Origin: Prostheceraeus crozeri
Lineage: Eukaryota > Platyhelminthes > Polycladida > Euryleptidae
Direction of reading: 5' to 3'
NCBI GenBank assembly: GCA_907163375.1
Contig: CAJQUW010014360.1
Location: 27,432 to 91,431 of the forward strand
DNA: 64,000 bases
The position numbers and the translations under genes are program-made. The notes below the pieces were generated by a model, which saw only the letters and a list, made by a program, of their open reading frames with translations, did not search any database and had not been told where the DNA came from. Positions 8,717 through 26,653 of the stretch are shown in pieces; the first letter of the stretch is position 1, and each line of letters starts with the position of its first letter.

Positions 8717-8740
8717 GTATTTTAATTTGATTATTTGAAT

Positions 8741-8752: not shown

Positions 8753-8793
8753 TTCAAATTTTCGAAAAAATCTTTAAATTTGATTATTCGAAT

Positions 8794-9144: not shown

Positions 9145-9888
9145 AAGTTGCACACAACGAATTTTCACTCATTTTCAAATTATTTAGTGTCCATAACAGA
9201 CGTCGTTCTTCGTTCCTCCGTTCTCCGGTTCTTATTACAATTCTGAAGTGAGTTTCATTGTCATGTTGTGCTACTTTATAGGATATTCGGGAGTAGGAAC
9301 TTTATTAAGTTTTTATAACCAAATAGCTTTAAATATAGAAGCTTGGGTTTTTAGGATAGGAACACTTTATGTTATATTATTAACCATGTTTTTTTTTAAT
9401 TTTTCATCCTATATTAAGTCCCTGAGCGAGAGACATGAATATATCAGTTTAAATGTAAGTGTATTTGAATCAACAAGATTTTCACAGTTTGTTTATAAAT
9501 AAAAGATACCTAAATAAAGCCTTCATCCATTTTAAATATTCAGTCTGTCATCTGCTAACAGATGTATAAAATTCAAACTTGTTTAATTAAACAAATTGAG
9601 GATTGGTTGAAATTTTCGAAATTTCACTTTCATTTCATCAAATTAATTTCGAAATTAAATAATTTCAAGACAGCTACTTGTAAATTTCAACTCTTTCTAT
9701 GAGCAAACCGTTTTCGAATGAAAATTAAACTTTCGACTTTCGGTTTCAATTTCAACTTCAGATTTCAAATCTTTCTAAGATTTATTCAATATCAAGTTAG
9801 TACTTCATAATGTTTTGTTGGTGATATATAAATGAGTTCTCATTTAATAAGAGATAAAATTATAATCAAATTTTTTTCCTCCACAGAG

Positions 9889-11914
9889 ATGGTCCGACAA
9901 GAGAGTCTTGCACGACAGCGCCTAATTTTTCATTTCTGTGAAACGTGCAAAATACCCGTTCGACATGCTAATAAGAGCGGCCACAAGAACTGTATCTTCA
10001 AAAGTGAATGCACGTATCTGTACTGCCTAACCTGCAAGTCATATAAACGGAGTACTGAAAAGGTTAATACCGAAGCCTCTAAGGCATTCATTGAGAAACA
10101 TACACCATGTGCTCAACAAAATGGGAGGAAGGGAATCAACCTCACCTCAAAGGCTGAAAAGAGGAGGTTGGAGCGGTTATTTCAAAAGGAGAGGCCGATG
10201 GAAGGTGTCCTTTCACAGGTTGATGAGCCTACAGCAATAAAGAAACCTATCAAGTCCCGAGCCCCAAAGAAAGCCCCCAAGTCACGACAGTTCATCGATG
10301 ACACCTTAAGCGATTTTGAGGTGAGTTCTGCCAATCATACATAAAACCTTCAAAGGATAGCTTCTTAAATCCGAATAAATTAATTATTGGTCCATTATAC
10401 ATAAAAACATATATCGTTTAATCATTTCAGGATAATGATGAGATGCCTCCTCCTAAGAAGACCAAGGTCTTAATTCAGAAAAAGATCGTCACTAAAAATG
10501 TGAGAATACATTTACTCCATTAATTATTCTATCATGTAAAAAGTATTTCAACATTGTCACAACATTTCAGAGTGAGTTGCCTCAACAGAATTGTATCAGT
10601 TTTGAAGAGGAGAAAGCGGCTGAATGCTTGAGAAATGTAAGTATTAAAGTTATTCATTAGCTCTTTATGCGAAATTGAATATGTTCTTTTCTTCAGTTGT
10701 TTACAGGTGTGAACAGTATACCCCGTTTGCCTACACCGGAGAAGATGTGTCTTCCTAGTCCCGTAAGTGTCATTGTTTAGTTATTTGTCAATAATATTTC
10801 TCAATGCATGAAGTATTTCCAAGAACATGTATGCTTCTCAATGAGTTGCGAACATGTTATATTATTTTTCTCTGCAGGTTGCGCGATCGCTGTCCCTCAG
10901 GAAGCATCGAAGTTTCCTTTCGACGCCAGCGACCAGTACATCGGTGGAAGAGAATGAGGAAAAGCCGCATCCTATTCGGGAGTCCTCATCAGAGGACGAT
11001 GAAACCTCATCAGCGACTTCATCTGATGAGGAAACGTCGTCAGCGACTTCTTCCCCGACATCTTCTTCCGATGAGGATGATGATCCTGTTACAAATGTAA
11101 GTATCAAAGTTGGTCAACTGCATGAGTACAGAATTTTCTATTAAAATATGTTTTTTGTTTGTAATAGATTGATTTATCTTTTAGAATGACTCGTTGCCCC
11201 GTGAGACGGAGGTTGGAACCGATCAGAAGGTCACAATCCAGCCGGAGGTAAGAGAAATTCACTTTTGTATCTCATCAACGGTAAAATGCTAAATAGATGA
11301 TAAACAATTGTTTCTTTCGATTACAGGACTCCGCGATGTGTGCATCTCAGGAGGAAGTCTCGTTCAGCCACATCCGGGCTTCTCCGAGCTGGAGTGTGCG
11401 CCTTCCATTATCGCCGATGATGACACTGGCTCCTTCCTCTTCGATCCCAGCCGCAGCTCCTTCCTCTCCGATCCCAGCCGCAGCTCCTTCCTGTCCGATC
11501 CCAGCCGTAGATCCTTCCCCTCACGCTGCTGCGCCCGCACCTCCAGCTGCTCTCCCTGTCCGGCAGTATGATGTGGATCTCGACGCGACAGCAGAGGTAC
11601 AAGACGTTGAGGTGCAACTCCGTCGTTGCCAAGAGCGCCTAAAGGAGGCTGAGGCCCGCGAGGCTAAGTTGGAGGAGGACAATAGAGGTTTGATTGAGTC
11701 TCTAAGAAATATTACTCAATCAAACCTCCTGTTGGCCTCCCAAGTTACCACCAGCCAACAGCATAACAAAGAAACGCTTGTGCACCTGGAATGCTCCCAA
11801 AATGGCATCAGAAGAGTGCGCCTTACGAGGATGGACGATTTGGGTGGCTGTAGTGACAGCTGCAGTCACCTAAAACTCTACCATAGTGGTATTGTTAAAT
11901 GTGTCAGACTGTAA
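9889..11914 (+). CDS. Spliced Polinton gene: seven coding exons, all phase 0, about 500 residues
   Basis: The predicted coding exons are 9889-10320, 10431-10499, 10571-10636, 10697-10762, 10878-11096, 11185-11247 and 11327-11914. Every intron has GT(A/G)AG-type donors and TTNCAG- or TTTAG-type acceptors, and every exon is a multiple of three (144, 23, 22, 22, 73, 21 and 195 codons plus stop). Exon 1 encodes a Cys/His-rich region (CETC...H...C...C...YCLTC) that may bind zinc, then a Lys-rich stretch. The middle exons encode acidic and Ser-rich disordered sequence (SSSEDDE, SSSDEDDD). The last exon has a Pro/Ala-rich part and a leucine-zipper-like coiled coil from about residue 405 (ERLKEAEAREAKLEED). 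No family is recognised. A nuclear regulatory or DNA-binding role would fit but is inference. Confidence 0.7.
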
Positions 11915-12029
11915 CTTTATTACTTTAACTTTTATTTTCTTCTTTTTTTTGAAAAAAATAATTGTTGAAATTATATGTGTTTTGTCTTTACAACAGATCG
12001 GAACATACGGTATTGGCTGGTGATGACGC

Positions 12030-12060
12030 TGACGTCATTAGCTGGTAGATGTATATAAGG
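12030..12060 (+). promoter_or_regulatory. CRE (TGACGTCA) plus TATATAAGG promoter of the polymerase gene
   Basis: A perfect CREB/ATF palindrome TGACGTCA at 12030-12037 lies 15 bp before TATATAAGG at 12052-12060. The ATG of the zinc-finger/polymerase frame is 31 bp further on. Confidence 0.6.
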
Positions 12061-12090
12061 GCTTGCTAATTTCAATCCTCATCAATAATC

Positions 12091-12384
12091 ATGGTTGTCT
12101 GTACCAAGTGTGGAAAAGTGTTCACTCTCATAGGCAATTTGCAACGACATGAAAAATTTTGTAAGTTAGGAAAAACGTATCAATGTAGCAAGTGTCCATA
12201 TAAGACGAATAGGATGGATAATCTTAAGAGGCATAAACTTGTATGCAATAATAAACCGAATGATAGCATAACAGAGTCAAATTCAAATAATCAAAATAGA
12301 TCTACTTCTAAGCCAACAACCAGCGCTTCAACTAACATACAAAACTTTATGCAATACTGCCTCTCGGTGTGGCAAAACGTATAA
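12091..12384 (+). pseudogene. C2H2 zinc-finger N-terminus of the polymerase gene, out of frame with it
   Basis: This 97-codon frame encodes two C2H2 fingers (CTKCGKVF...H...C and CSKCPYKT...H...C) and a Ser/Asn linker. Near its end, around 12356-12366, the frame changes. Beyond that point the polymerase frame shows the second half of another finger (C-G-K-T-Y...H...H). The gap between the would-be Cys codons is one base too long, so a single-base indel probably separates one continuous finger+polymerase gene. It could be a real mutation, an assembly error, or two genuine genes. The CRE/TATA promoter lies before this frame and none lies before 12410. Confidence 0.65.
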
Positions 12385-12409
12385 CTCTATAAGTAGATTT
12401 CGACAGCAT

Positions 12410-15400
12410 ATGAATGTACATAACACAAATAGTGAGATGAATATGCATAATAACTATGGAACTGTTAGTCTCAGTGAAAGCGCACTCAATGGCCATGCAC
12501 GTGTGTATGATATCACGCCAACAACACCTACTGTGGACATAACATCATTTTTAGAAAGCATGCGTTCCATGTTAGGGAATTTAGTGTCTGACTTACTAAG
12601 GAGCTATCAATTGCGCGGTCGTCTGATTGCACAAATTCGTTATGTCCGTTCTAATCCTCAAGAAGAAGAAACTTTTCTCGCACACTTTACCTCATCATCC
12701 TCAAACTATATTTATGACTATGATGCTTGGTTTCAGGATCATCTAAATAGTCTAATAAATCATATTGAAGCCTTCACAAAAAAGGGTAGCAATTGGATTA
12801 TAGATGATGTACAAAATATAGAGTTCAATGTAATAACAAGTCCAATACTGTCAGGTGGACAATCATTTCCTCTACCAAAGAAGTTAAAAAACTCTAAAGC
12901 TGTCACTAATGTTAATTCAAATGCAAATGATTGCTTCCTATATGCAGTTTTATCAATATTGCATTATAATGAAGTACCTTATTCAAGGAATGAAGTAAAA
13001 TCATATAGTAAGTGGGCATCTGAGCTAAATATGGAAGGCATTTCCACACCAGTATCAATCAAAGATATTCCAAAATTTGAGAAAAATAATGATATTAAAA
13101 TTAACATTCACTTTTATGAAAATGGACTCAAAGGTGTTCGTTACAATAGTAACTTTACTGGTAGGCAAACGGTTAATATTTTGCTAATTCTAAACAATGG
13201 AGCAGCACACTATTGTGGAATTCCAAAGCTGTCAAGATTGTATAGGAGAACTTTAAAAAGACATAAATACTTCTGCGAAAGATGCACTCAGTCATTCACA
13301 TATAAGACAACACTAGAACGACATTTCCAGTTTTGCATTCGAGGAAAAGCACAAATAGAAAAAATGCCGACAGATCTAAAAGTACTAACAAGTAGCATGG
13401 AATATCAACTAAGTCCTCCTTTAGTAATTTATGCAGATATAGAGTGCTACATTGATAATAAAATACATAAACCTGCGGCCATTGGAGCTTATCATGTCTG
13501 GCATAATGCCCTTCAATCAAAATTTGAAAACAAGTATTACCTCTTTGAAGGTGAAAATTGCATTATTGGTTTCTTGCACCACTTAGAAACTGTAGCCCAA
13601 GACTTATATGACAACCAATGTGCAACAACTAGGCAGCCAATGACACTGTCAGCGGATGAAAAAGCACGCCATGAGAATGCAGAATGTTGCAACAAATGTA
13701 AATCAAAATTCAGCGATGAAGTCATAAAAGTTCGTGATCATGATCATATCACCGGACGATATAGGCAAACATTATGTAGGAAATGCAATCTCCGGTTAAG
13801 ACTTAACAGACGGGAGCTCCCCATATTTTTCCACAATTTTAAAAATTATGATAGCCACATCGTTTGCTATAAAGCGATTGGAAGAATGAAGTCTTGGAAA
13901 TTAGATGTTGTAGCAGCAACTGCTGAAAAATATATAACTTTATCCGCCAGTGTCCCTGTAAATGAATACAAAGGGAAGACAGTATACTTTAAACTAAAAT
14001 TCTTAGACTCATATCAATTTCTAAGTGCATCCTTGAGTGAATTAGCCAAGGGCTTGCAAACGTATGAGCATGTAGAGACATTAAGGGTAGAATTTCCACA
14101 ATTAAGTGATAATGTTTTATATCAGAAGGGAGTGTTTCCATATTCATACTTCAAAAACTTAAACACGTTGACGGAAGACTGTCTACCACCACAATTTGAA
14201 TTCTATAATTATCTTACTCGTGAGCACTGTTCCGATAGTGAATATGAACACGCTAACAAGGCGTGGATTGAATTTAATTGTAGCACATTTGGTGATTACA
14301 TGCTGGCATATCTGAAGTTAGATGTTTTATTGTTGGCAGACATATTTGAAGTGTTTAGAGCATTGAGTCAACGTGAGGATGAAGTCGACCCTGTACATTT
14401 TGTCAGTCTCCCACATCTTAGCTTTACCTCAGCACTAAATTTCTCTTCCAATGATCCCCCACACTACATACAAGATGAAAATATGTACAATCTATTTGAA
14501 CGAGGAATTAGAGGGGGTATGACTTTCACCAACATTCACCGAGCGCGTGCACGCATTGAAGAATTAGGAAATAATATACATGAAAGTCGACATTTGACCT
14601 ACTTAGATGTTAATAACCTTTACGGTTCTTCACTCAGTAGGAATCTACCCCACTCAAATTTCAAATGGTTGAATGAAAGTGAATTAGATAATTTTTTAAA
14701 TGAAGAAAATGTTCAAAATATAGATGATGATGGTGAAATCGGCTACATTTTTGATTTAGATTTAGAGTATCCTGCAGCCATTCATGATGACACTGCCGAT
14801 TTCCCATTAGCTCCAGAAATGCAGATGATTGAAAAGAGAATGTTTTCACACTATATGAAAAATCTATATGAAAAAGTAAGACCAAATACACATTTTTCTT
14901 CTATCAAGAAACTTCTGCTCCATCAATTTGATAGGGAAAATTATGTAGTCCACTATTCAATTTTAAAATTTTACTTGAGCATGGGCATGAGAATCAAGAA
15001 GATTCATAGTGGCATAAAATTCACACAAAAGCCTTGGTTAAAAACATACATTGATATGAACTCTCAAAAGAGGGCTCAATCAAACACTGACTTCGAAAAG
15101 TCATTCTACAAATTGAAAAATAATTCTTTATATGGTAAAACAATGGAAAATGTAAGGAGAAGGAAAAAATTTAAACTAGTCAACAATGAGAAACAACTAC
15201 TGAAATTGTCAAATCATCCTCTCTATGTTCAACACAAAATATTTGATGAAGATCTGGTTGGTATGGAAATGTACAAACCTTCAATAGTTTTAAATAAATT
15301 AATATATGTTGGTCAAGCAGTACTTGACTATAGTAAGTTGGAAATGTATCAATTATATTACAATGATCTAAAAGGATGTCCACTGATAAATAGAACGCGA

Positions 15401-15949
15401 CTTTGTGGAGGTGATACCGATAGTTTCTTCCTATGTTTATACACATCACCATCTGTCCGTCTGGAAGATATACTTCTATACTTCGGTGAAAAGTTTGACT
15501 CTTCAAACTATGACAGTCATCACCGACTATACTCAACTACAAACAAAGCTAGATTAGGTTGTTTTAAGGATGAGTGTGCTGGAAAGTTGCTTGAGGAAAT
15601 GATCCTACTAAAACCGAAAATGTATTCCATGAAATATCTAGACTCTACGAATCATAGCATCAAACGTGCAAAAGGAATTCAGAGAGCAGCAGTTAAAAAA
15701 TTGAAACATGATGACTATAGGAGTGTCTATTATAGTGAGAATGATACAACTGAAGATATGACAATTATAAATTCAAAAAATCACATAGTTAGCACAAAAT
15801 CATTTAGGAAGCGAGGTCTTTCACTTTGGGAGGATAAGCGCTGTTGGCTGGATAAAAATTTATCATTACCATATGGACACTATAGCCTAGGTCTTCCCCC
15901 ACCGTCGAAGAGAAGGAGATGCCTTCCTGTCACAGGTGATGTAGAATAA
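12410..15949 (+). CDS. polB: Protein-primed family B DNA polymerase of Polinton (DNA_pol_B_2)
   Basis: The frame has 1179 residues and replicates the element from its ends using a protein primer. From the N-terminus: a papain/OTU-like region at about residues 170-270 (NDCFLYA ... HYCGI), a Cys/His finger at about 288-310, then the exonuclease with Exo I YADIEC (D343, E345), Exo II HNFKNYDSH and Exo III YLKLDV. Inserted in the exonuclease is an endonuclease-VII-like zinc/HNH module (CCNKC, VRDHDHITGRYR, CRKCN, residues 424-460). Polymerase motif A is YLDVNNLYGSSL (about 731-742), motif B KNNSLYGKT (about 903-911), motif C GGDTDSFF (D1002, D1004), followed by KPKMYSMK. All catalytic residues are present. 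The ATG at 12410 is simply the first in this frame; the natural start is probably 12091 (see the zinc-finger entry). AATAAA follows the stop. Confidence 0.95.
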   Translation: MNVHNTNSEMNMHNNYGTVSLSESALNGHARVYDITPTTPTVDITSFLESMRSMLGNLVSDLLRSYQLRGRLIAQIRYVRSNPQEEETFLAHFTSSSSNYIYDYDAWFQDHLNSLINHIEAFTKKGSNWIIDDVQNIEFNVITSPILSGGQSFPLPKKLKNSKAVTNVNSNANDCFLYAVLSILHYNEVPYSRNEVKSYSKWASELNMEGISTPVSIKDIPKFEKNNDIKINIHFYENGLKGVRYNSNFTGRQTVNILLILNNGAAHYCGIPKLSRLYRRTLKRHKYFCERCTQSFTYKTTLERHFQFCIRGKAQIEKMPTDLKVLTSSMEYQLSPPLVIYADIECYIDNKIHKPAAIGAYHVWHNALQSKFENKYYLFEGENCIIGFLHHLETVAQDLYDNQCATTRQPMTLSADEKARHENAECCNKCKSKFSDEVIKVRDHDHITGRYRQTLCRKCNLRLRLNRRELPIFFHNFKNYDSHIVCYKAIGRMKSWKLDVVAATAEKYITLSASVPVNEYKGKTVYFKLKFLDSYQFLSASLSELAKGLQTYEHVETLRVEFPQLSDNVLYQKGVFPYSYFKNLNTLTEDCLPPQFEFYNYLTREHCSDSEYEHANKAWIEFNCSTFGDYMLAYLKLDVLLLADIFEVFRALSQREDEVDPVHFVSLPHLSFTSALNFSSNDPPHYIQDENMYNLFERGIRGGMTFTNIHRARARIEELGNNIHESRHLTYLDVNNLYGSSLSRNLPHSNFKWLNESELDNFLNEENVQNIDDDGEIGYIFDLDLEYPAAIHDDTADFPLAPEMQMIEKRMFSHYMKNLYEKVRPNTHFSSIKKLLLHQFDRENYVVHYSILKFYLSMGMRIKKIHSGIKFTQKPWLKTYIDMNSQKRAQSNTDFEKSFYKLKNNSLYGKTMENVRRRKKFKLVNNEKQLLKLSNHPLYVQHKIFDEDLVGMEMYKPSIVLNKLIYVGQAVLDYSKLEMYQLYYNDLKGCPLINRTRLCGGDTDSFFLCLYTSPSVRLEDILLYFGEKFDSSNYDSHHRLYSTTNKARLGCFKDECAGKLLEEMILLKPKMYSMKYLDSTNHSIKRAKGIQRAAVKKLKHDDYRSVYYSENDTTEDMTIINSKNHIVSTKSFRKRGLSLWEDKRCWLDKNLSLPYGHYSLGLPPPSKRRRCLPVTGDVE

Positions 15950-15996
15950 GTCTAAATAAAAACAATATAATATTCCACTTGTAATAGATCTTGCGA

Positions 15997-16167
15997 TTGC
16001 TGCATCTTCCGACATGTAGCAACACTTACTAATACATAAGTAGTCTTACTAAAATTGAAATTTCTACATCTTTCCGATATGTAGAAATGATTACTAATAA
16101 ATAGGTAGTCCTAATGTGAATGAATATGTGAAGAATTTGTACTCAACATCATTCCGATATGTTGAGC
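15997..16167 (+). ncRNA. Three tandem stem-loops with covarying stems and a conserved TTCCGAY loop
   Basis: Hairpin 1 is at 15997-16022 (9-bp stem with one G-T pair, loop CTTCCGAC). Hairpin 2 is at 16061-16087 (9-bp perfect stem, loop CTTTCCGAT). Hairpin 3 is at 16142-16166 (8-bp stem, loop CATTCCGAT). The stems differ at several positions, yet each change is matched on the other side, while the loop core TTCCGA is kept. Units 1 and 2 are also followed by a shared 'ttactaata.ata.gtagtc' segment. They lie between polB and the next gene, so they could act in the polB 3' UTR or the next leader. Confidence 0.65.
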
Positions 16168-16228
16168 TAATAAAATAACAAACTTTAGGCAAACATTAAA
16201 CTTAAATTTGAAACATAGCTTTCGGAAC

Positions 16229-16789
16229 ATGCCTCATTACATTAGAACATGGAAACTTAGTGACGTTCAAAACGTTCACATAACAAATTCTAAAAGAATA
16301 GCATTTCGTCATTCAATAGCAAATAGTGATCGAAAACATCGTGGCGTTTGCATTAGTATTGACTCATTGCCTTCACTGAAAGACTTTGCGGATCTCATTG
16401 ACAACCATAAGACTCGGATCAAGATTCCTCTCGATGACAAGGTATGGATAAAGTGTGATTCATCAGTCAAACTATACGTCTGTTCACCAAAACGTGAAGA
16501 TGTTGAATATCGATTTTTTCGTTTCAGTGACGTCACATGGGAAACCTTTACAAGGGAGATACTACCACAGATAACGTCATTCATTAAAGATGGAGGACAT
16601 CAAACGGTTGGAAGTTGTAAATCGGATGTTAACTACAAAAGCAAAGTCAAAACTCAATCTACAAGAGATCGAGAGGAATATACCCAACCGAAAACAATGG
16701 TTACTGATAAAACGCAAATTGAAGCCGACAACAAGCTTACATCTTGGAAGACCCTCAATGTTAACATGGAGGATTCAGAGGAAGGATAG
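16229..16789 (+). CDS. Unknown Polinton protein overlapping the TBP-like gene
   Basis: I take the first ATG, giving 186 residues. The N-terminal 120 residues look globular (VCISIDSLPSLKDFADLID, VWIKCDSSVKLYVC, YRFFRFSDVTWETF). The last 60 are polar and low in structure and coincide with the 200-nt overlap with the next gene in another frame, where the other frame seems to carry the constraint. Family not recognised. Its position directly before the TBP-like gene suggests a shared transcript and perhaps a shared role. Confidence 0.6.
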   Translation: MPHYIRTWKLSDVQNVHITNSKRIAFRHSIANSDRKHRGVCISIDSLPSLKDFADLIDNHKTRIKIPLDDKVWIKCDSSVKLYVCSPKREDVEYRFFRFSDVTWETFTREILPQITSFIKDGGHQTVGSCKSDVNYKSKVKTQSTRDREEYTQPKTMVTDKTQIEADNKLTSWKTLNVNMEDSEEG

Positions 16790-17159
16790 ATCTCTCACTA
16801 TCCTATTCTTTCCAAATGGAACAATCCAATGTATTGGAAGGGTCATGGAGGGTGATCTCTCATATTTACACTTAACTTTGGAACATTTACTTGGTGATTC
16901 ATTATCTGATTGGAAAGTGAAGACAATGACCGTGTTATGTGAATTACACTATCACTATGATTTCCGTAAAGTTACATCATCACATAATCTAACTTATGAA
17001 GTGGAGCAGCTTCCAGCAGCTCAATTGACTAACTGGCATCCATATCATGTTCATGTGTTCCATAATGGAAAGATTGTGATAACCGGCATTAAAGACATAA
17101 GTGATGTGCCTCCCATCATATGTGATTTGAAAAAATGTTTCATGAAAACCAAATTGTAG
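16590..17159 (+). CDS. TATA-binding-protein-like (TBP fold) protein
   Basis: The 189-residue protein shows two TBP-type repeats. Repeat 1 has a 'KLNLQEIERNIPN' helix (compare LDL-x-x-IA in TBP), then a strand 'MLTWRIQRK' and 'TILFFPNGTIQCIG' (compare the R-I-x-x-P ... IF-S-G-K-x-x-x-T-G signature). Repeat 2 has 'WKVKTMTVLCEL', a 'LTYEVEQLP...WHPYHVHVFHNG' stretch, then 'KIVITGIKD', and a closing helix 'VPPIICDLKKCF'. TBP bends DNA at TATA boxes and nucleates transcription. Similarity is remote and judged by eye; the repeat order and spacing fit well. The start ATG at 16590 lies inside the previous gene. It is the last plus-strand gene before the convergent structural block. Other proteins with the same fold (DNA-glycosylase N-domains) are less likely, because the S-G-K-type turns match TBP. 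Confidence 0.72.
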   Translation: MEDIKRLEVVNRMLTTKAKSKLNLQEIERNIPNRKQWLLIKRKLKPTTSLHLGRPSMLTWRIQRKDRSLTILFFPNGTIQCIGRVMEGDLSYLHLTLEHLLGDSLSDWKVKTMTVLCELHYHYDFRKVTSSHNLTYEVEQLPAAQLTNWHPYHVHVFHNGKIVITGIKDISDVPPIICDLKKCFMKTKL

Positions 17160-17308
17160 ATTTTGTATATATGTGGATAGATAATGAAATGTGAACATGT
17201 TTTTTGTATATATGTGAATAGATAATGAAATATGAGCATGTTTTTGTTTTCCTTATAAACCCTTGTTTTGGAAAAAAAGAGAGCAAGTTAATGATACAAC
17301 ATAAAACT
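17160..17308. other. Convergent 3' intergenic region with a 44-bp direct repeat
   Basis: Two copies of 'tgtatatatgtg.atagata' plus 'atgaaat.tga.catg' lie side by side between the convergent gene blocks. The reverse complement of 'actttatttc' just left of the protease stop (about 17306-17315) supplies an AATAAA for the minus-strand transcripts. Confidence 0.6.
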
Positions 17309-17773
17309 TTATTTCAAAACTGTTTCAACATATTTAGTAAGAATTACATCATTTTTATCACAGTTTTTTGAAAATAGTTCTAAAGCACTTTTACAGTTAT
17401 TTTTCAATGGTCTCTCGTTGACAAAATAGAGTACATAGCCACCGCACATTAGAGATGTATTACTTTGAAGTGGGAACGATGTCACTTTCCTAACAGTCCA
17501 GGAAAACCTGTTCATCCATAATGCGATATCATGTAAACGAGGTTGATTAAGAGAGTCAAAATATTCGGCAACTTTATAACGATTGATGTATACAGCAATC
17601 CAATGTTTTCCGGGAAGATTGTTGGTATCCGTATTGATGATAAGCGAACAAGGATAGAAAGGAATTGAATCAGGTAAATTATCTCTAGAAAAGACATTGA
17701 GAAATATTGTCTTGGAGTAGGGATGAGCTTTCCTCATTTTCCTCAAGATTTCTATGTTGCTTAAGTTACTCAT
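17309..17773 (-). CDS. Adenain-like cysteine protease (capsid maturation)
   Basis: This 154-residue protein has the adenain/Ulp1-type order of catalytic residues: His57 in KHWIAVY, Asp73 in EYFDSL, Gln103 in FPLQS and Cys110 in MCGGYVLYF. Length is short for the family but the core is complete. In adenoviruses and Polintons this enzyme cleaves capsid precursor proteins. The ATG overlaps the stop of the upstream capsid gene (ATGA at 17770-17773), so the two are tightly linked. Candidate substrates in the element are the two small basic Gly-Gly proteins. Confidence 0.9.
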   Translation of the reverse strand: MSNLSNIEILRKMRKAHPYSKTIFLNVFSRDNLPDSIPFYPCSLIINTDTNNLPGKHWIAVYINRYKVAEYFDSLNQPRLHDIALWMNRFSWTVRKVTSFPLQSNTSLMCGGYVLYFVNERPLKNNCKSALELFSKNCDKNDVILTKYVETVLK

Positions 17774-19053
17774 CTCTGATAGCTGACAGTCACGTCTCTC
17801 ATTCTTGTTATCTCAACTTTGCTATCATAGATAGCATAAATGAGACAAGTAATTGTTTTCTTCAAAGGTGACTCAAATGATACCTCCAGTCGTAGATTTC
17901 CAGGCTTTGTAACTCCTACGCTTTCACCACCTAGATCTGCATCTGCTGTGAGGTTGTACATAATGAAGAAGTAGCCATTCTTGTACATATCCATTGTAAT
18001 TCCATTTGAATCGTCTGTATTAAACATGTTGAGGGCGGTGAAAATAGAACCATATTCACGTGCGAATTTACCATCTTTGAAATTAGGCTCATATGCTTTG
18101 CAAGATACAAATTTCCCATCCTGATAGAGTGCTAGTTTGCTAACATTAAAGTGTTGGAAATTGAATGGATTCTTTTCAAAAGCACCAATGAATGCCTCAT
18201 TTTCCACAAATGTGATATACACCGCCTTTGGCATTGCAGTGGGAAAAAGATTTGGGTAGGCATGTGAGGATGATCCCGCACCAATTGTGAAGTTTGTCAA
18301 CACACTGTGATTAACTGGATATATTGCATTGTTTTTCCTCAATCCTGTCGCATGCTCGTTGATGACTGACGGGTTCATTGTTACTCGCCTTACATTGAGC
18401 ACGGCATTACTTATGTTGACTTGATAGTTTGTAGCTCCAAAAGCCATTAACGCGAACTCAGGATTTGCACGAATAAATTTTATTTGCATTTTAACCTGTG
18501 ATAGCAGATATCTAGATTGACGAAGGAAATCAAGATAGACGGGTCCTTTCAAGTATAATTCCTTTGAATCCGCTGTTAAATCCATTCGTCTTTTCAACCC
18601 TGTATTTGAGACATCATCAAATTTCCCTTGCTGATCATCATACCACCCAGAAACTTGCAAGTGTGACTGTTTAGCTTGCTTTTGAAATTGAGTCATTGTA
18701 TGTATATATGCTCCATATGGATATGCTCGATCCCCTCCTTCAATCTGTTTGTCATTCAATATTAGATACACATCTGAGAACAGACTGGCAATAGGAAGAT
18801 TTGCTAACCCCACTTTATCCTTGGATGAATCGATATTTGTACCATCAGTCTTCTTAATTTGTATACACAACTCTAAATCAATGGATTGGCAGTCAATATA
18901 ATCTTGAGGATTGGCAGGTATATCAAACTGAATAGGCTGCTGGTTACCATCGATGTTTGTTGTGGGGACTATGTCTACAATTGTTGAGGAGATGATGTCT
19001 GTCTGATGAGGGGGAGAATCGAAGAAACACAAAGCCGAATTGATACTCTGCAT
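17770..19053 (-). CDS. Candidate Polinton major capsid protein (F54H12.2-like family)
   Basis: The protein has 427 residues and starts at an ATG. It contains the pattern typical of this family: a 'YIDCQSIDLELCIQIKKTDG' segment, then 'LPIASLFSDVYLILNDKQIEG', 'AYPYGAYIHTMTQF' and 'SQVKMQIKFIRANPEFALM'. These alternate strands and short loops as in a jelly roll. Homologues are scattered through invertebrate genomes and were proposed to be double-jelly-roll capsid proteins. It sits between the 121-residue basic protein and the protease in a compact late block. The assignment of major rather than minor capsid comes from family memory and needs structure prediction. Confidence 0.75.
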   Translation of the reverse strand: MQSINSALCFFDSPPHQTDIISSTIVDIVPTTNIDGNQQPIQFDIPANPQDYIDCQSIDLELCIQIKKTDGTNIDSSKDKVGLANLPIASLFSDVYLILNDKQIEGGDRAYPYGAYIHTMTQFQKQAKQSHLQVSGWYDDQQGKFDDVSNTGLKRRMDLTADSKELYLKGPVYLDFLRQSRYLLSQVKMQIKFIRANPEFALMAFGATNYQVNISNAVLNVRRVTMNPSVINEHATGLRKNNAIYPVNHSVLTNFTIGAGSSSHAYPNLFPTAMPKAVYITFVENEAFIGAFEKNPFNFQHFNVSKLALYQDGKFVSCKAYEPNFKDGKFAREYGSIFTALNMFNTDDSNGITMDMYKNGYFFIMYNLTADADLGGESVGVTKPGNLRLEVSFESPLKKTITCLIYAIYDSKVEITRMRDVTVSYQR

Positions 19054-19181
19054 CGTATTAGCTCTACAAATATGTTGTCTTCCTTCGTTTTGACTTGTTT
19101 CTAGTAGCTGTGGAATTTCGTTTGCGCTTTCTTGTTTTCACTCGACGTCTAGATTTAGAACGTGCTGCTCTAGTCGGCTTT

Positions 19182-19547
19182 TTACTTTTTTCTGCGTCTT
19201 TGCTTAGTAACTCGGCCTGATCCAACTTGTCTTGACTTCCTACGCTTCTTCCGAACTGTACGTCTCGTCTTTGTTAAATCATCTAATGCGTCTATGGCAG
19301 ATTGCTGCGCGCGCATTTTCATAGATTCACCGATATCCTCACCTTGAAGCGCATCAGCTGCAACATTTGCACCAAAATCTAAAGCCCTGCTTCCAACACG
19401 CTTCATGATTGGTACTCCATACTTTTTGAGTGTTGGAAGAACCATACGTCTTAGTGCACCAAATATGCCTCCTCCAACTTGTCGTCTACCTCCAACAAAC
19501 ACGGGATAACCGCTCTGATATGATGGTCTACTGTAAATGCCTGTCAT
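19182..19547 (-). CDS. Small basic virion-type protein with Gly-Gly motifs
   Basis: This 121-residue protein starts at an ATG. It opens with Tyr/Gly-rich sequence holding FVGG and QVGGG (residues 17-28), then a hydrophobic-amphipathic segment (IFGALRRMVLPTLKKYG), and ends in a very basic tail (RRTVRKKRRKSR ... KQRRRKK). Basic core and membrane-lytic proteins of adenoviruses (pVI, pVII, pX) have this build and are cut at Gly-Gly or Gly-X sites by adenain. It lies between the two capsid genes. A DNA-condensing or membrane-active virion role is inferred. Confidence 0.6.
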   Translation of the reverse strand: MTGIYSRPSYQSGYPVFVGGRRQVGGGIFGALRRMVLPTLKKYGVPIMKRVGSRALDFGANVAADALQGEDIGESMKMRAQQSAIDALDDLTKTRRTVRKKRRKSRQVGSGRVTKQRRRKK

Positions 19548-19590
19548 TATGACTATTGAATAACTATGGAAGTCACAATAGCGTAAAGCC

Positions 19591-21168
19591 TTATTCTCGT
19601 GACCTAATATGTAGGGTCAAAACAGTAACACCACCACAGAACGGTACTACTTCTCCTGCATCATCATGAATTGATATGTCAATTCTATTGATGAAATTTC
19701 GGCTGATTGGTAGATACATTGTGTTAAAAAATTCTCGATTGATTAGTTGCTTCCTTACGGATGAGAGAGGAAATGTGCGCAGAAGTGGGGCCTCAATGTC
19801 GCCAACCCTTGTATATTCAATAATGTTACAATAGACGTATAAGTTACTTATATCACGCTCTAGTGATGGGGCTGTATCGCCTATTGATGTACCTTCATAA
19901 ATAGTTGATTTTGAGAATCCCAATGTGGTCGTTAACACGCTATCCAGCTTGATAAGAGAGTTCTTCCCTACCTTTAGAATCATGCGTTTCTTATGTGGGT
20001 CATAAGAAAAGTGATATTCATCTGCATCAAGGTAATCTACACCAAACTCATTTAACTTTGTACACAATTCAGATGGCGTTTTCAAGCTTTCAATGTTCAA
20101 ATTAACTCTTTTTACAAGTTCACTGGAAGTAGACAATTCATCACCCGATATGTCTTCGCTGTATACGTGGATATCCCATGAAGCATTTGTTGATGCTTTG
20201 AGTTTAGAAGAGGACAATTGAACCTTGAATGTATCATTTAATTCTGTCAACCAAGGTGCGCTTTCAAGGCCCTTAAACATCCCAATCATTTCAGATCCAA
20301 ATTCAATAACAGCGGACTCAGACTTTTCCAATGGTGTCTTTTTAGTAAAAACAATAAATTCTGCCTCCGTTTCAACAGTAAATAAAGTTACTTTCTCTTT
20401 CTTATATTCACAAGTCATTAACGTTTCTGGCACTGATCCTTGAAACTTTCTTGCAAAGTCTTCAACACTTCTAATGACCTCAAATTTATTTTTTACTCGG
20501 ATGCTCCTTTTTTGTAATGCATACAATGGCACAATTCTACATTTAAAATCAGTGACTTTCCTCTCCGAATTCCACCCACGTCCATTGTACCAATACCTTG
20601 ATGAGAAAGTTGTTCTGGAATACCCAAAAGTATGACTCAAATCCTTACCTAATACAAGAAGAACATGCTTCCCTTCCTTCATCAATTTTGTTGACCCCTT
20701 TATGACTGGTTTGTAGAATTTATTCAAAGTCAGCTTGAAGAGATCATTTATTCGTTCAAACATTCTACCGATTTCCTTTTCTGTATCTTGCAAGCTCATT
20801 GTGGGAACCTTAGAATCAAAAGTTGACGTTGCAAATGCCTTTTGAATTTTAATCATGTTTTGAACAGATGGTAAAGATGTTGAAAAAGGATGTAAAGTTA
20901 GATGATGAAAAGCCCATGTACCATGTAGACTATTTTGAAATATGCGAAAGCAATCATCCTTCTCTCGCACTTCTTTATGTAATTCAAAATAGTTGTTCTT
21001 TAGCAAACTGATATCGTTGTAATAAGTAATTTCAGTTAGAGCAACTTCATGGGGTCCATGCAGAGTAATTGGATTAGCGAATTCAACAGAGTATAGAGAT
21101 GGTTTGTTACTTGGGAATATCTTGGGGTTGCTATTGCTTGGAAGAATGATATTGAAGTTAGTAGACAT
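19591..21168 (-). CDS. Candidate Polinton minor capsid (penton-type) protein
   Basis: I take the first ATG (21168), giving 525 residues. The N-terminus 'FNIILPSNSNPKIFPSNKPS' followed by 'FANPITLHGPHEVALTEITY' is a hallmark of a capsid-associated family next to the MCP in many invertebrate Polintons. The rest is beta-rich and ends with 'INRIDISIHDDAGEVVPFCG', a pattern I also associate with virion proteins anchored in the shell. It is the second largest structural gene and lies between the basic 121-residue gene and the integrase. Confidence 0.65.
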   Translation of the reverse strand: MSTNFNIILPSNSNPKIFPSNKPSLYSVEFANPITLHGPHEVALTEITYYNDISLLKNNYFELHKEVREKDDCFRIFQNSLHGTWAFHHLTLHPFSTSLPSVQNMIKIQKAFATSTFDSKVPTMSLQDTEKEIGRMFERINDLFKLTLNKFYKPVIKGSTKLMKEGKHVLLVLGKDLSHTFGYSRTTFSSRYWYNGRGWNSERKVTDFKCRIVPLYALQKRSIRVKNKFEVIRSVEDFARKFQGSVPETLMTCEYKKEKVTLFTVETEAEFIVFTKKTPLEKSESAVIEFGSEMIGMFKGLESAPWLTELNDTFKVQLSSSKLKASTNASWDIHVYSEDISGDELSTSSELVKRVNLNIESLKTPSELCTKLNEFGVDYLDADEYHFSYDPHKKRMILKVGKNSLIKLDSVLTTTLGFSKSTIYEGTSIGDTAPSLERDISNLYVYCNIIEYTRVGDIEAPLLRTFPLSSVRKQLINREFFNTMYLPISRNFINRIDISIHDDAGEVVPFCGGVTVLTLHIRSRE

Positions 21169-21208
21169 GTTAAAGTCATATATGGAAGAAGTCACATGCT
21201 ATATTAGC

Positions 21209-22297
21209 TTAAAAGTTACGAGTGTCTCCCATCTCCACATTTTGTAGATCCTGATGCGTTATCCAGCTATTGAATGAATCAGGATATCCTTTCCATTTAA
21301 CTAGATATTTCCTTTCATTGCCATGACCTTTCCTCCTAATTATTTTATCAATCATATACACCTCTTCACTTCTGTCTACTACTTGCAATTCATAAGAGTA
21401 AAATTTTCCTTCAATTGGATTGCCATGGTAATCTATTAATTTATACATGGTGGGTCTAAATTTTGTATTTACTTCATCCACAAAAAACTCTTCTTCAGTC
21501 CAATTAGGTAGATACCCCTTCTCAAATGTAGACTTAACCTTTGAAATCCGAACTCTATCACCAACATTAATTTTCTTTTCATTGGAAATGTTTTTCGCTT
21601 TCTTATCATACAATCGAAGCCATACATCCATCGCATTATCTGGGGTAACATCAACTGGTTTCATCTTAATGATTCGATGGTAGCTTTCATTGTAATTCTT
21701 AACAAATTTCTGCAGCTCACCTACCCAAACATGTGTATTTTTTGCAGTGAAATAGCGCCATATTTTTGTCTTCAGTGTGCGATTGAACCTCTCAACCATG
21801 GCAGCTTTATAAGCACTTTTGACACTAAACAATTCCACATTATGACTTTTAAGGAGACTTCGAACATGAGAGTTTTCGAATTCCTTCCCTTGATCGGTCT
21901 GTATTCTTTGCGGAACACGCCCCTCATCGAAAATGCTCTGAAAAGCCGCTTCAACTTCTGGTCCTCGTTTAGATTTCAGCGCACGTGCCCAAGCATAGCG
22001 AGATAAAATATCTATTACGGTTAAGATGTATTTATAGCCATCATTGTACTGTGATATCTGTTGCATGTCAGCCAAGTCCGCTTGCCATTGACTATCTATA
22101 TTGTTAACAACATATTTTCTTGTTGGAAACCGCTTTCTCGCATTTTTGTGAAGAGTGTAAGTCGGTTGACTCCTCAACCACTTCTTGACTTTCTCTATTC
22201 CCACACCTGCTGCACGAGCTAGAACCTCCGGACGACTGAAACTTGCGGGATGATTTAAGTCGTAATAAATCTTTCTGAGTTTCACTGCTGTACTCAT
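21209..22297 (-). CDS. int: Retroviral-type integrase with C-terminal chromodomain
   Basis: From the ATG at 22297 the protein has 362 residues. An N-terminal helical region (YYDLNHPASFSRPEVLARAAG) precedes the DDE core: Asp74 in WQADLADM, Asp135 in TDQGKEF and Glu169 in MVERFNRTLK. The C-terminal third has an SH3-like part (VGDRVRISK ... WTEEEFFVDEV) and a chromodomain (YLVKWKGYPDSFNSWI). This enzyme joins the element ends to target DNA and makes the 6-bp duplication seen here. An open extension upstream of 22297 uses only a TTG and is not needed. An overlapping 108-codon frame (22104-22430) is Ser/Cys-rich and was not accepted. Confidence 0.93.
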   Translation of the reverse strand: MSTAVKLRKIYYDLNHPASFSRPEVLARAAGVGIEKVKKWLRSQPTYTLHKNARKRFPTRKYVVNNIDSQWQADLADMQQISQYNDGYKYILTVIDILSRYAWARALKSKRGPEVEAAFQSIFDEGRVPQRIQTDQGKEFENSHVRSLLKSHNVELFSVKSAYKAAMVERFNRTLKTKIWRYFTAKNTHVWVGELQKFVKNYNESYHRIIKMKPVDVTPDNAMDVWLRLYDKKAKNISNEKKINVGDRVRISKVKSTFEKGYLPNWTEEEFFVDEVNTKFRPTMYKLIDYHGNPIEGKFYSYELQVVDRSEEVYMIDKIIRRKGHGNERKYLVKWKGYPDSFNSWITHQDLQNVEMGDTRNF

Positions 22298-22464
22298 CGT
22301 CTTTGTTCTGATTTGCACGCGTATTACTCGCACAGCAACTGCTAACACAATTGATATCAACCTCTATGCCCTCTTCTCCTTTGCCTTCGAGCGCAGATTT
22401 CAAACAACAGCAAAATTTTTGTAACGACATAATATGAGAGAGGCAAGGCTTAATTCATATTTGC

Positions 22465-23145
22465 TTAATATTTACTATACTCCTTCGCAACACGCATTGA
22501 GCGCCTAGTAGCTCTTTTTGGTTGCAGATCATCGGGATCTGCAAGCTCTCGCTTGACCGCCATCGTGGGTGTTTTACTCTTTGATCCATCTTGTAAGTGA
22601 TCCTTATCCAATTCATTCACAGTCGGTCCTCCAATAATATTGTGAGGTACATTTTGATCAGATAAAATTTTCTGAAAATATGTCCACCCTTGTGGTGCAC
22701 CTAGTTTTCGCCTTACATCTCTGACAGCATATTGTAGAAGGTCATCTATGTGACTATTTCTAATAACATCACCAGTTGTTTCATCTATTATCTCCCCTCT
22801 CTCATTGAACTTCACATGTGGATCAATGAAGTCAAAAAATCGCTCAGCGCGCACACGATATGGTCGAGGTGTTGACAAGGTTATAAATCGTCGCAACTTG
22901 TCACGAATCTGTCGCCTCTCGTCAATGTTTTCAGCTGCTAACTGCATTCGTCGATAGGGATCCTTAATCTTCTGAATTTCCATATCCTTTTGTGTTAGTT
23001 CCTTAAGTTGATTCGTAATAGGTTGATCTATATTTTTGACTTCCTGTGCACTTTGTAATGTAGTCAATTGTACATACTCCTCTTGAGGAATGACTACCAT
23101 CTTTGAATACGACATGTTTGAAAATAATAAGGCAACAAAGTACAT
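22465..23145 (-). CDS. Conserved Polinton protein of unknown function
   Basis: The frame has 226 residues, or 216 from the ATG at 23115, which I prefer because the first ten residues are hydrophobic and atypical. It begins 'VVIPQEEYVQL', has a charged coiled-coil region, and then 'SHIDDLLQYAVRDVRRKLGAPQGWTYF ... NVPHNIIGG', a pattern I associate with the gene beside the packaging ATPase in other Polintons. The C-terminus is basic (KRATRRSMRVAKEY). Its 5' end overlaps the ATPase stop by about 20-50 nt. Packaging accessory or scaffold is a guess. Confidence 0.6.
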   Translation of the reverse strand: MYFVALLFSNMSYSKMVVIPQEEYVQLTTLQSAQEVKNIDQPITNQLKELTQKDMEIQKIKDPYRRMQLAAENIDERRQIRDKLRRFITLSTPRPYRVRAERFFDFIDPHVKFNERGEIIDETTGDVIRNSHIDDLLQYAVRDVRRKLGAPQGWTYFQKILSDQNVPHNIIGGPTVNELDKDHLQDGSKSKTPTMAVKRELADPDDLQPKRATRRSMRVAKEYSKY

Positions 23146-23789
23146 TGCTTAAAACTAACTGTGAACCGAGAAACTGTCATTGGTTCAGCGGAATTAGGTA
23201 TGATATTTGTTCGAAATCGAAGTCGTTCCGGACATTCCTGGGTTAGATCAATAAATAGATAACCATGTGGTTTCTTTGTTACATCTTCATATATTTTTGA
23301 AAGTACTTTAGGTTGTTGAGGTAATATCTGTCTACTGAGATGATGTATCTGACTGCTATCTCTTGGATTTTTAAATATTGCCAAATAATGTGTATTCAAA
23401 CTTCTAGTTCTTTGCTCTTTCCCTCCATCGAAGATGTTTTGGGTGATGTAGATAATAAAAGCTTCCCTATGATGTGCAGTTTGAATGAACATTTCAGTTA
23501 CATCCTTTGAAGATTTGCTTTCTCGTAATAGATCATCTAATACTAGTAAGTCACCTGCTTTGATATCCTCAGTTGATGGCAACCCTTGCTTCACCTCATA
23601 ACCTTTCTGGCGAAGTGCAGAATGTAGTTGTGGTTGAAATATTCCATAATACCATTTGACTCTCTTAATTTCCTTGTTAAACATTTCATTTCTATATTGT
23701 AGCAATTCAGTTACAAATGTAGTTTTACCGGACTGACTTGGTCCAGCGACACACATTGTGCGATCAGTGAATAGACGAAAATCTGTCAT
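23094..23789 (-). CDS. FtsK/HerA-type genome-packaging ATPase
   Basis: This 231-residue protein has Walker A GPSQSGKTT (residues 16-24) and Walker B LLVLDDLL (about 79-86), then a sensor-like 'FIIYITQNIFDGG' strand. Order and size fit the A32/packaging ATPases of Polintons, adintoviruses and related viruses, which pump DNA into capsids. ATG start at 23789. Its 3' end overlaps the next gene. Confidence 0.92.
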   Translation of the reverse strand: MTDFRLFTDRTMCVAGPSQSGKTTFVTELLQYRNEMFNKEIKRVKWYYGIFQPQLHSALRQKGYEVKQGLPSTEDIKAGDLLVLDDLLRESKSSKDVTEMFIQTAHHREAFIIYITQNIFDGGKEQRTRSLNTHYLAIFKNPRDSSQIHHLSRQILPQQPKVLSKIYEDVTKKPHGYLFIDLTQECPERLRFRTNIIPNSAEPMTVSRFTVSFKQCTLLPYYFQTCRIQRW

Positions 23790-23955
23790 CTTATAATTCC
23801 ATTAACATTAAACTCATCATCCCGCTAATTTTGCTTAGAACAACAAAACAGACACATGTTCCAGATCAAGCTTATTTACATTCAGAATAGAAACTTTCAA
23901 GTTACATTTACAAATTAAAACATTTACAAATTAAAACATTTGTGTTTCCTCATCA
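23790..23955. other. Polinton intergenic segment with the displaced 3' tail of the LINE-split gene
   Basis: In the frame that crosses the LINE insertion, a stop codon lies at 23931-23933, so the last eight codons of the gene at 28730 are stranded here. The rest has no gene. Confidence 0.6.
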
Positions 23956-23962
23956 CAATTAG
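23956..23962. repeat. Target site duplication CAATTAG (LINE 3' side)
   Basis: CAATTAG occurs here directly before the tail repeats and again at 28021-28027 at the LINE 5' end. Confidence 0.65.
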
Positions 23963-24079
23963 TAGTAGTAGTAGTAGTAGTAATTTGTTTATTCAAGAAT
24001 TGGAAATCAAACTTTACAAGGGAAAGGTACGTAGTACTTTAGAAATGAGAGTTATTACATGTAAAGACAGCGAGTAAAG

Positions 24080-26653
24080 TTAAAGTGAGTCGTTGTACCA
24101 TTTTGTGAGTAAGGGAACAAAAGAATTCGCGCGTCTTTCAGATCTGATTTGGCATTGCATGAGATGGTGAGAATGCTTCAAGGTATCAGGGAAAAGATGG
24201 TTGATAAAGTTATCGCCTTGTTTGATATTCTGGAAGGTTTTCATTGCTTTTGTAAATCTTCTGCTTGCGATGGTCGGAAAGTTGCGGCAATCACACTGTT
24301 GGCCACAAATCATCCTGTGAGCTCTTTTATTTATTCTTTCGCATTTTTGGCTATTTTTCCTATTTAGCCCAGTGAAAATTTCGCTGTTGTATTCAAGAAG
24401 ACTGCGTATACAACACTGATACACCTGGATGAGTTCGTGTTTTGGCAGAAGTGGTCTGAGCTGTCGTATGATGAAAAGTCGGCTGCTGGCTCTCTTGCAT
24501 ATGTCGTTAATATGATCGTCCCATTTAAGATTTTGCTGAATAGTGACTCCGAGAAATCGAATGGATGAACAGCCGTGCGGAAATGGAGATGCTGTTGGTG
24601 GATTCTTTTTGCCGAACGTTATAACCTTAGTTTTCTCTGAGTTGAGCTCTAAGCCATGAGAGGAACACCAAGAGTTCAAGTGTTTCAGTTCCGATTGAAA
24701 CATCTCGTAGCAATCGTCTGAGCTGGTGAAAGGACAAAGAACTAGAACGTCGTCTGCGAATTTCAGAACAAGCGAATTGTGGTGGTGTGCAGTAATCGAA
24801 CCAATGTGCGCGGCGAACAAGTAGGGTCCGAGCACCGAACCTTGTGGGACGCCGGACGAAACAATTGATACAGTACTTAGATGCTTACTTTTCAAGACTA
24901 CACGCTGCCTTCGATCTTCAAAGTAATTACACAGCCATCTGATACATCGACTAGGTATAGACGAGTTAACCAGAGTCTGAAACAGTGCATGATGACTTAA
25001 TTTGTCGAACGCTTTCTTCATATCATAGGATATGGCCAAAACACCATCGACGTGGCCTTTTTCCATCTCTTTGGTGACATAATCATGGAGCTCAATGTGC
25101 GCGTAGACACTCGAACATTGTGGACGAAATCCGTATTGATTAAGTCCATACAACATTAGAAGGTCTTCTTTGATTGAGGACACGACGTACTTCTCCAGAA
25201 TTTTTGAAATGATGGGAAGAAGGGTGATTGGTCTAAAGTCGCTAACACGCTTGGCTTTTGGTTTGGGGATTGGAACGACGTGACCAACTTTCCATTGAAC
25301 TGGAACAATGCCATTCTCAATTGAGAGAGCACAAAGATGTGAAATGGGACCCGCAAGAGCTTGTGAGCATTGGCGAAGTATAGTTGGAGATATGTTGTCG
25401 CTTCCGGGACTCTTTGTTTTGATACATCGCAGATATTGTTCCGTCTGTACAATATCAATGTCAACCAACCAACTTCTACCATCGTCGAGAATCGAGCTAG
25501 CGATATTTGTCCAGTCTGGAGCTTCAGAATACACGCTGGTAAAGTATCTATTGAAGTTTTCAGCCGCCTGTTCCGGAGTTTCAAATTCGTTAATTATCCG
25601 AGAGAGCACCCCTGTCGATCTAGTATTAAGTATAGAGCTGGCGACATTCCAAAAGTTACCCTTTGACGACTTTATCTTATCGACCCAGTTCCTTTTGGCT
25701 TTCAAAATTTCGGTTTTGATTTTGCTTTTATAGTAATAGTACAAGTCGAAGTTGTTAGTTCTGAACGCTGCAAATCGCTGATTGAATAGCAGTTTGAGCT
25801 TGCCAGTAACCCACGGTTTGTCAGATGCTGTAATTTCTACATACGAGTAAGGAATCTGATCGTGATAATAGTTGAACACATCGTAGAAGTAATTGCATTT
25901 ATCTTGGAATGAGTCGTTGGATAAATACATGTGGTTCCAAGGATGCTGAACAAGTCTTGTGAATAACATGTCAATATTGCTTCTGCGATAGTCGACGACT
26001 TTGCGTATCTCCTTTATGTGTGTAGCATGCTCGGGTTGAAGTAAAACGTTCAGATGATCAGCGTTACCAAAATTTGGAGTCGTGATGGGGGACTTATAGG
26101 AGTAAAGAAGGCTAGTGTCCAGGAATATCTTGTCAAGAGTAGCAGTCTTTCGAGTTGGTGCTTTAACAACCTGAGTCAATCCCAAGGTTGCACAAAGATC
26201 GTCACATGGAAGTTGATTTAAGTCCCCAGCGATGATTACCTTTACATCAGAGTCGCACACTTGATCTAGTGCGTAGTCAATGTTATCAAGAATATAAGCA
26301 ATGACTTGCTGATACACTGCACTGGCTAAATTAGGTGGGACGTATAACAGAAGGAACAGAATTTTTTGTAAGGAAAGTTTTATCCACAGACACTCAATTT
26401 CGCGAGGACATGGAGGCATAGTGATAAGGCTAACGCTACGAATGTCTTCTTTGATGTAAAGGCAAACTCCACCACCTCTTCGTCCGTCACAGCGATCATG
26501 CCTATAAGGGGAACAATAGTATGGCAAATCAATCTGAGAACTCGAAACGTTTTCATTCAACCAGGTTTCACAGACTGCAATGAGATCTGGTTTAGCAGTC
26601 TTGGAGAAAACTGAAAGCTCGTCTATTTTAGGACGAAGCGATTGAGCGTTCAT
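24080..26653 (-). CDS. LINE ORF2: APE-type endonuclease plus reverse transcriptase
   Basis: From the first ATG (26653) the protein has 857 residues. The frame is open a further 17 codons and begins with TTG at 26704, overlapping the ORF1 stop as TTGA. The endonuclease shows 'MNAQSLRPKIDEL', 'CETWLNE' and 'AGDLNQLP'. The reverse transcriptase has 'FRPITLLPIISKILEK', 'SGVPQGSVLGPYLF' and the catalytic 'LKFADDVLVL'. There is no RNase H; the C-terminus has the usual Cys/His-poor CR1-like end. Host-genome target-primed reverse transcription is the known role. How ORF2 is started (reinitiation at the overlap or at 26653) is open. Confidence 0.93.
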   Translation of the reverse strand: MNAQSLRPKIDELSVFSKTAKPDLIAVCETWLNENVSSSQIDLPYYCSPYRHDRCDGRRGGGVCLYIKEDIRSVSLITMPPCPREIECLWIKLSLQKILFLLLYVPPNLASAVYQQVIAYILDNIDYALDQVCDSDVKVIIAGDLNQLPCDDLCATLGLTQVVKAPTRKTATLDKIFLDTSLLYSYKSPITTPNFGNADHLNVLLQPEHATHIKEIRKVVDYRRSNIDMLFTRLVQHPWNHMYLSNDSFQDKCNYFYDVFNYYHDQIPYSYVEITASDKPWVTGKLKLLFNQRFAAFRTNNFDLYYYYKSKIKTEILKAKRNWVDKIKSSKGNFWNVASSILNTRSTGVLSRIINEFETPEQAAENFNRYFTSVYSEAPDWTNIASSILDDGRSWLVDIDIVQTEQYLRCIKTKSPGSDNISPTILRQCSQALAGPISHLCALSIENGIVPVQWKVGHVVPIPKPKAKRVSDFRPITLLPIISKILEKYVVSSIKEDLLMLYGLNQYGFRPQCSSVYAHIELHDYVTKEMEKGHVDGVLAISYDMKKAFDKLSHHALFQTLVNSSIPSRCIRWLCNYFEDRRQRVVLKSKHLSTVSIVSSGVPQGSVLGPYLFAAHIGSITAHHHNSLVLKFADDVLVLCPFTSSDDCYEMFQSELKHLNSWCSSHGLELNSEKTKVITFGKKNPPTASPFPHGCSSIRFLGVTIQQNLKWDDHINDICKRASSRLFIIRQLRPLLPKHELIQVYQCCIRSLLEYNSEIFTGLNRKNSQKCERINKRAHRMICGQQCDCRNFPTIASRRFTKAMKTFQNIKQGDNFINHLFPDTLKHSHHLMQCQIRSERRANSFVPLLTKWYNDSL

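Follow-up and report, generated by a model that had tools for sequence, protein, structure and literature searches.

Polintons are thought to lie near the roots of many eukaryotic DNA viruses, and the locus described here raises the question of whether such an element carries a TBP of its own and, if so, which of its genes that protein would serve. The window, a 64,000-nt stretch of the Prostheceraeus crozeri genome, contains at 16590..17159 an ORF that a preliminary description had proposed to encode a Polinton-borne TBP-like factor. The ORF proved to be a single open frame of 189 aa with an ATG start, and its placement inside a Polinton was borne out, since inverted repeats and a target duplication bound the element around it.

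The element starts with AGTAGT, ends with ACTACT and is flanked on both sides by GTTATA. Its inverted repeats, at 6212-6620 and 30723-31131, extend over 409 nt with 98% identity and, as reported, overrun the element ends by 15 nt. It thus has the terminal inverted repeats, AGT-type ends, 6-bp target duplication and rve-type integrase (over the Pfam cut-off) by which Polintons/Mavericks are recognized. The genes are laid out in two converging modules, with the zinc finger, polB, PUR-like and TBP-like genes on the + strand and the virion genes, integrase and ATPase on the - strand:

6227..31116, no strand assigned: whole Polinton, 24,890 bp, an apparent nested non-LTR retroelement included
12091..12384, + strand: C2H2 zinc-finger ORF (zf-C2H2 E 1.9e-9), with TATATAAGG 39 nt 5' of its ATG
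12410..15949, + strand: family B DNA polymerase (polB) ORF, 1179 aa, with DVNNLYG, NSLYGK and GGDTDS in its translation
15997..16166, + strand: in the gap from polB to the PUR-like ORF, three small palindromes/hairpins whose loop is TTCCGAY
16229..16789, + strand: PUR-like ORF, 186 aa
16590..17159, + strand: TBP-like gene, 189 aa
17309..17773, - strand: cysteine protease ORF that runs towards the TBP gene (Peptidase_C48 match weak, E 0.033, below cut-off)
17770..19053, - strand: putative major capsid protein, named from its position beside the protease, with no Pfam match
19182-19547 and 19591-21195, - strand: two further virion-side ORFs
21209..22360, - strand: integrase with chromodomain (Pfam rve E 3.6e-13, Chromo E 2.6e-9)
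23094..23789, - strand: P-loop ATPase ORF (AAA_14 E 1.1e-4, below the Pfam cut-off)

Above the Pfam cut-off the polB ORF matched Endonuclease_7 alone, and we take DVNNLYG, NSLYGK and GGDTDS to be family B polymerase motifs. Two other families each have a version of the putative capsid protein at 43% identity, and no RNA polymerase was found among the element ORFs scanned with Pfam. Candidates for the further genes expected of a Polinton (protein-primed polB, FtsK-type ATPase, Ulp1-type protease and capsid) were recognised by motifs for polB, by matches under the Pfam cut-off for protease and ATPase, and by position for the capsid. Reading of the translations, with no profiling, pointed to an apparent two-ORF non-LTR retroelement (24080-26704 and 26701-27414) nested in the Polinton; a TAG microsatellite lies just past it (24080-27414), and the insertion seems to split an ORF at 27483-28730. 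By eye, the arm ORF at 30134-30646 has a C-terminal Cys/His pattern resembling a RING finger. The motif TTCCGAYATGT occurred three times in the window, always within 15997..16166, where the three hairpins gave RNA folding z values of -3.6, -2.8 and -3.1. Changes in their arms are paired and the TTCCGAY loop is invariant, and they are a possible operator or RNA structure.

The 189-aa protein matched the Pfam TBP model (PF00352) at E 2.2e-12, scoring 47.1 bits where the curated threshold is 22.9, and 70 of the 71 members of its family alignment, A3, matched the same model at E ≤ 0.001. The A3 profile aligned along nearly its full length with human TBP (E 2.2e-25; 1nvp_A, profile 6-170 of 173 to chain 7-178), and M. 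jannaschii TBP was matched at E 6.9e-30, indicating that both TBP repeats are present. The paired repeats that the preliminary description had read in the window protein were thereby recovered across its homologues, and the fold that it expected was also predicted: AlphaFold2 with A3 gave a TBP fold with a pLDDT of 93.3 and a pTM of 0.85 (pLDDT 88.6-93.3 across five models), and in a Foldseek search of the PDB every hit from rank 1 to rank 44 was a TBP chain or a fusion containing TBP, with E values between 1.4e-10 and 5e-8, and the next row was at E 2e-3. With a profile score above the cut-off and two direct repeats forming a saddle, the product of 16590..17159 is, by sequence, repeats and predicted fold, a member of the TBP superfamily, although we do not file it as a canonical TBP. 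Many close relatives start at an internal Met (MLTWR, MTILFF), which we infer to be an artefact of gene calling, where programs shun overlapping ORFs and so skip the part shared with the PUR-like frame. A real short form was considered for these truncated relatives and set aside. Among the close relatives P0001, P0021, P0022 and P0026 are nearly full length, as are several distant relatives. Searches of viral contigs (where other element genes were also sought), genome contigs and phages found no relatives.

In cellular TBP, the yeast residues N69, F116, F190 and F207 contact DNA and the stirrup Y185-P191 contacts TFIIB. We take A3 columns N11, F74, F141, F157 and Y136-P142 to be their counterparts, as placed via the A3 profile alignment to human TBP. 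N11 was present in 43/43 rows having a residue there, and F74, F141 and F157 in 70, 69 and 70 of the 71 rows, respectively; in the stirrup the counts, again out of 71, were 70 for Y136, 69 for E137, 65 for E139, 66 for L140, 69 for F141 and 70 for P142. These positions (N11, F74, F141, F157 and Y136-E137-x-E139-L140-F141-P142) are among the most conserved columns of A3. Judged by aligned position, the family is shown to retain residues that contact DNA and TFIIB in cellular TBP, and it appears suited to bending DNA and holding TFIIB. The TFIIB-contact stirrup of a canonical TBP is present, and its two pairs of intercalating Phe are incomplete: three of the four are kept, and of the 52 rows with a residue at the equivalent of yeast F99, 46 have Pro. 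At the counterpart of yeast N159, 70 rows divide into 40 with N, 20 with T and 10 with S, the window's close relatives having T/S. Because the F99 equivalent is mostly Pro and the N159 equivalent is variable, the protein may have a changed base preference or none. The window copy differs from 29/29 other compared copies at two adjacent stirrup residues and, being atypical there, may be an impaired or weaker copy.

The TBP ORF is overlapped by the PUR-like ORF over 200 nt in a different frame. The PUR-like model comprises two beta4-alpha repeats over residues 1-120 and a low-confidence stretch over residues 127-186, and four of the five models were poor. The PurA profile had no match in 8/8 PUR-like members at E ≤ 1, so the protein is named PUR-like and is not counted as a PUR member. 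PUR-fold proteins bind single strands, and the PUR-like protein is probably single-strand-binding. Its homology to other families was weak (hhalign probability 3.2%, E 0.014; tblastn E 3e-4 to locus L042). The TBP frame was +1 relative to the PUR frame in five of the six loci with a value (the window, L046, and L045, L036 and L038, the last three being of one family); it was +2 in L043, which is apparently interrupted, and three of nine loci gave no frame value. In view of the low-confidence PUR tail and the presence of only three invariant columns after residue 122, we do not claim dual coding of the overlap. The PUR tails of L045 and L046 share PFSF..AV..LR, with SIE near the end, despite the constraint of the TBP frame. 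At L042, positions 1150-2025 form one 292-aa frame running from a PUR-like start into TBP, and a 292-aa frame occurred in 6/150 scored Pfam-TBP rows; a natural PUR-TBP fusion was set aside at L042, where, set against L046, the second PUR repeat falls in a different frame.

A copy search of the 2.05-Gb assembly gave 10,617 candidates, and the best 150, which were scored, were all 99-100% identical and without stops; open copies therefore number 150 or more, in a sample that ranking by protein match tilts towards intact ones. In 30/30 near-identical copies read, among which is that of the window, the TBP gene was flanked within the same 3.4-3.6 kb by polB, PUR, protease and capsid ORFs, and the 29 near-identical copies compared had identical TBP-like proteins. 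The pN/pS between copies was 0.22-0.57 in seven pairs, values resting on few changes. A Pfam TBP search of the genome, with the best 150 of 10,984 candidates scored, returned the host TBP (contig C9306, two exon matches 15 kb apart, best 123.7 bits), a TRF2-like host locus whose name was assigned from sequence (L032, two rows on contig C3829), and 146 non-host rows of 43-52 bits, eight of them with a stop inside the matched stretch. Among the non-host rows, eight loci (L036, L037, L040, L042, L043, L044, L045 and L046) were tested by tblastn with 18 element proteins, and in all eight the TBP-like frame adjoined protease and capsid and/or polB, a stop interrupting it in L036 and L040. In the TRF2-like control L032 (3.2 kb), none of the 18 element proteins matched at E ≤ 1e-3. 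The eight loci represent at least four families (L040; L043/L044/L037; L045/L036; L046/L042), with TBP identities of 36-56% in the listed pairs and 25-34% to the window's TBP. The genome has several Polinton families with the TBP-like gene; copies and families were sampled through their TBP, and Polintons without it are invisible to this sample.

To the TBP gene the preliminary description had joined a set of shared TATATAAGG promoters, of which three exact sites occur in the window, all inside the element, against 0.34 expected (0/100 shuffles reached three):

12052..12060, + strand: TATATAAGG
28815..28823, - strand: TATATAAGG
30070..30078, - strand: TATATAAGG

Each sits 5' of a correctly oriented ORF, at -39, -93 and -144. 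When one mismatch was allowed, 16 sites were found against 14.6 expected, a chance-level result that 35/100 shuffles reached. The broader pattern TATA[AT]A[AGT] lay within 160 nt upstream of 8/8 arm and zinc-finger ORFs versus 0/9 polB, PUR, virion, integrase and ATPase ORFs (Fisher 4e-5; 6/8 versus 0/9, 0.002, when restricted to -25 to -150), in a grouping that was made post hoc and with several start codons guessed (GTG, TTG); single shuffled regions carry this box in 15-41%, and the core-gene upstream regions are mostly coding. Near the polB start there is a CTATAAG, which falls outside the pattern, and TATT[AT]A was present in 2/17 upstream regions, at -110 and -112. GCTAATA and TAAGC[TA]A recur upstream with no excess over chance shown, and no motif common to the core-gene upstream regions was found. 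The split argues that TATA boxes serve the arm genes and that the core genes use something else. Consensus TATA boxes are already read by host TBP, and the viral TBP may therefore serve the other, TATA-less class. Perfect TGACGTCA (CRE-type) palindromes were observed at 16528-16535, upstream of the TBP start, and at 12030-12037, upstream of the zinc-finger ORF, with a third outside the element at 43343.

We consider it fairly probable that the diverged Polinton-encoded TBP is the element's own start-site selector and recruits host TFIIB and RNA polymerase II. Its gene and that of the adjacent PUR-like protein overlap and close the polymerase module; the TBP would clamp the minor groove of element promoters and would recruit host TFIIB and RNA polymerase II. 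On the reading that we prefer, its targets would be the TATA-less core genes for virion and replication functions at a late stage, and host TBP would read the TATA-box arm genes. A late/core role of the viral TBP is favoured by analogy with the TATT late promoters of beta- and gamma-herpesviruses.

The link drawn by the preliminary description, that the TBP binds the TATATAAGG boxes and so drives a self-contained transcription programme, fared less well. The three exact sites stand, unequalled in 100 shuffles and each 5' of an ORF on the right strand, and three of the four intercalating Phe and one Asn are kept; however, the boxes are the ordinary consensus of host TBP, one-mismatch sites occur at chance, and polB, virion and integrase ORFs are without boxes (0/9 core ORFs have one). 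We regard it as unlikely that the TBP drives these sites. We also think it improbable that the protein is a decoy or repressor, competing for DNA or TFIIB and damping host or early element transcription with no initiation itself. Its retained stirrup and one lost DNA-contact Phe would suit such a role, and TBP paralogues acting by partner sequestration exist, but the remaining DNA-contact residues are strongly conserved and would be unnecessary for pure TFIIB titration.

The position of the PUR-like and TBP-like genes, directly 3' of polB on the same strand, together with the single-strand binding typical of PUR-fold proteins, would accord with a replication role in which both proteins bind origin or terminal DNA and the TBP fold is merely a DNA-bending clamp. 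Against this stands the conservation of YExELFP, the stirrup known for contacting TFIIB, and we give the replication reading a low probability. A functionless captured host TBP fragment or hitch-hiking gene appears very improbable: host TBP genes do exist in the same genome and a stop lies inside 8/146 non-host rows, but position and contact residues are kept across families at 25-34% identity, open copies number 150 or more (in a sample ranked by match), and the host TBP is far more canonical (123.7 bits versus 43-52), with exons 15 kb apart. Carriage of a TBP gene suggests that the element helps choose its own promoters and does not rely only on the host. A TBP that the element itself encodes and that retains the TFIIB stirrup makes Polinton gene control in the host nucleus testable: one class of promoters should be specific to the element, and there should be a switch from genes read by the host to genes read by the element.

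The Polinton protein resembles cellular eukaryotic and archaeal TBP (PF00352) in its two repeats, saddle fold, three of four intercalating Phe and TFIIB stirrup, and differs from it in being 16-20% identical over structural alignments, in the mostly Pro equivalent of F99, in its bare core and in being encoded by a mobile element. TRF2/TBPL1 is likewise a diverged TBP paralogue, with a TRF2-like locus (L032) in the same genome, but it is a host gene, and 0/18 element proteins matched in its 3.2-kb locus. Among viruses, EBV BcRF1 and MHV-68 ORF24 are viral TBPs that act on TATT boxes at non-canonical late promoters; in beta- and gamma-herpesviruses the early genes use TATA, and the viral TBP binds the TATT box of the late genes (PMC4893493). 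The likeness lies in a virus-encoded TBP-like factor and two promoter classes per genome (PMC4893493); unlike the Polinton, with TATT[AT]A in 2/17 upstream regions, the herpesviruses use a multi-subunit viral complex on TATT. Giant-virus TBPs are also comparable, eight BFVD rows at E ≤ 0.001 being named TBP or TFIID, and TBP is reported in 59% of mirusvirus genomes (PMC10132985); these viruses are very large (a mirusvirus contig of 431.5 kb) versus the 25-kb Polinton.

In the open-access literature passages searched, adintoviruses and virophages included, we found no report of a Polinton or Maverick TBP, in agreement with the earlier remark that no established Polinton core gene is of this kind; the TBPs mentioned in those passages are of mirusviruses and mirusvirus-like insertions. 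Vertebrate Mavericks share the end motifs and converging modules of the present element (PMC8097293). There, pm and pz are conserved genes of unexplained function at the end of the polymerase module, pz closing it and facing the protease-ended module, with pm just before (PMC8097293). The PUR-like and TBP-like ORFs likewise end the polymerase module, a likeness of gene order, whereas atp belongs to the polymerase module in vertebrate Mavericks and the ATPase ORF of the window is on the other strand. It is conceivable, though rather doubtful, that the PUR-like and TBP-like genes are a core module of animal Polintons, that pm and pz are the same pair, and that Polintons specify their own promoters with a TFIIB-recruiting TBP predating or paralleling those of herpes-, mirus- and giant viruses; against it, four of the five PUR models were poor and the ATPase gene is in a different module from that of vertebrate Mavericks. 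The Polinton TBP/PUR-like pair may also account for the two conserved Maverick genes that have no assigned function. A word search of the main text of PMC8097293 returned neither TBP nor TATA. With the unexplained pz and pm in a similar place, the Polinton TBP gene may have been seen earlier but gone unrecognised.
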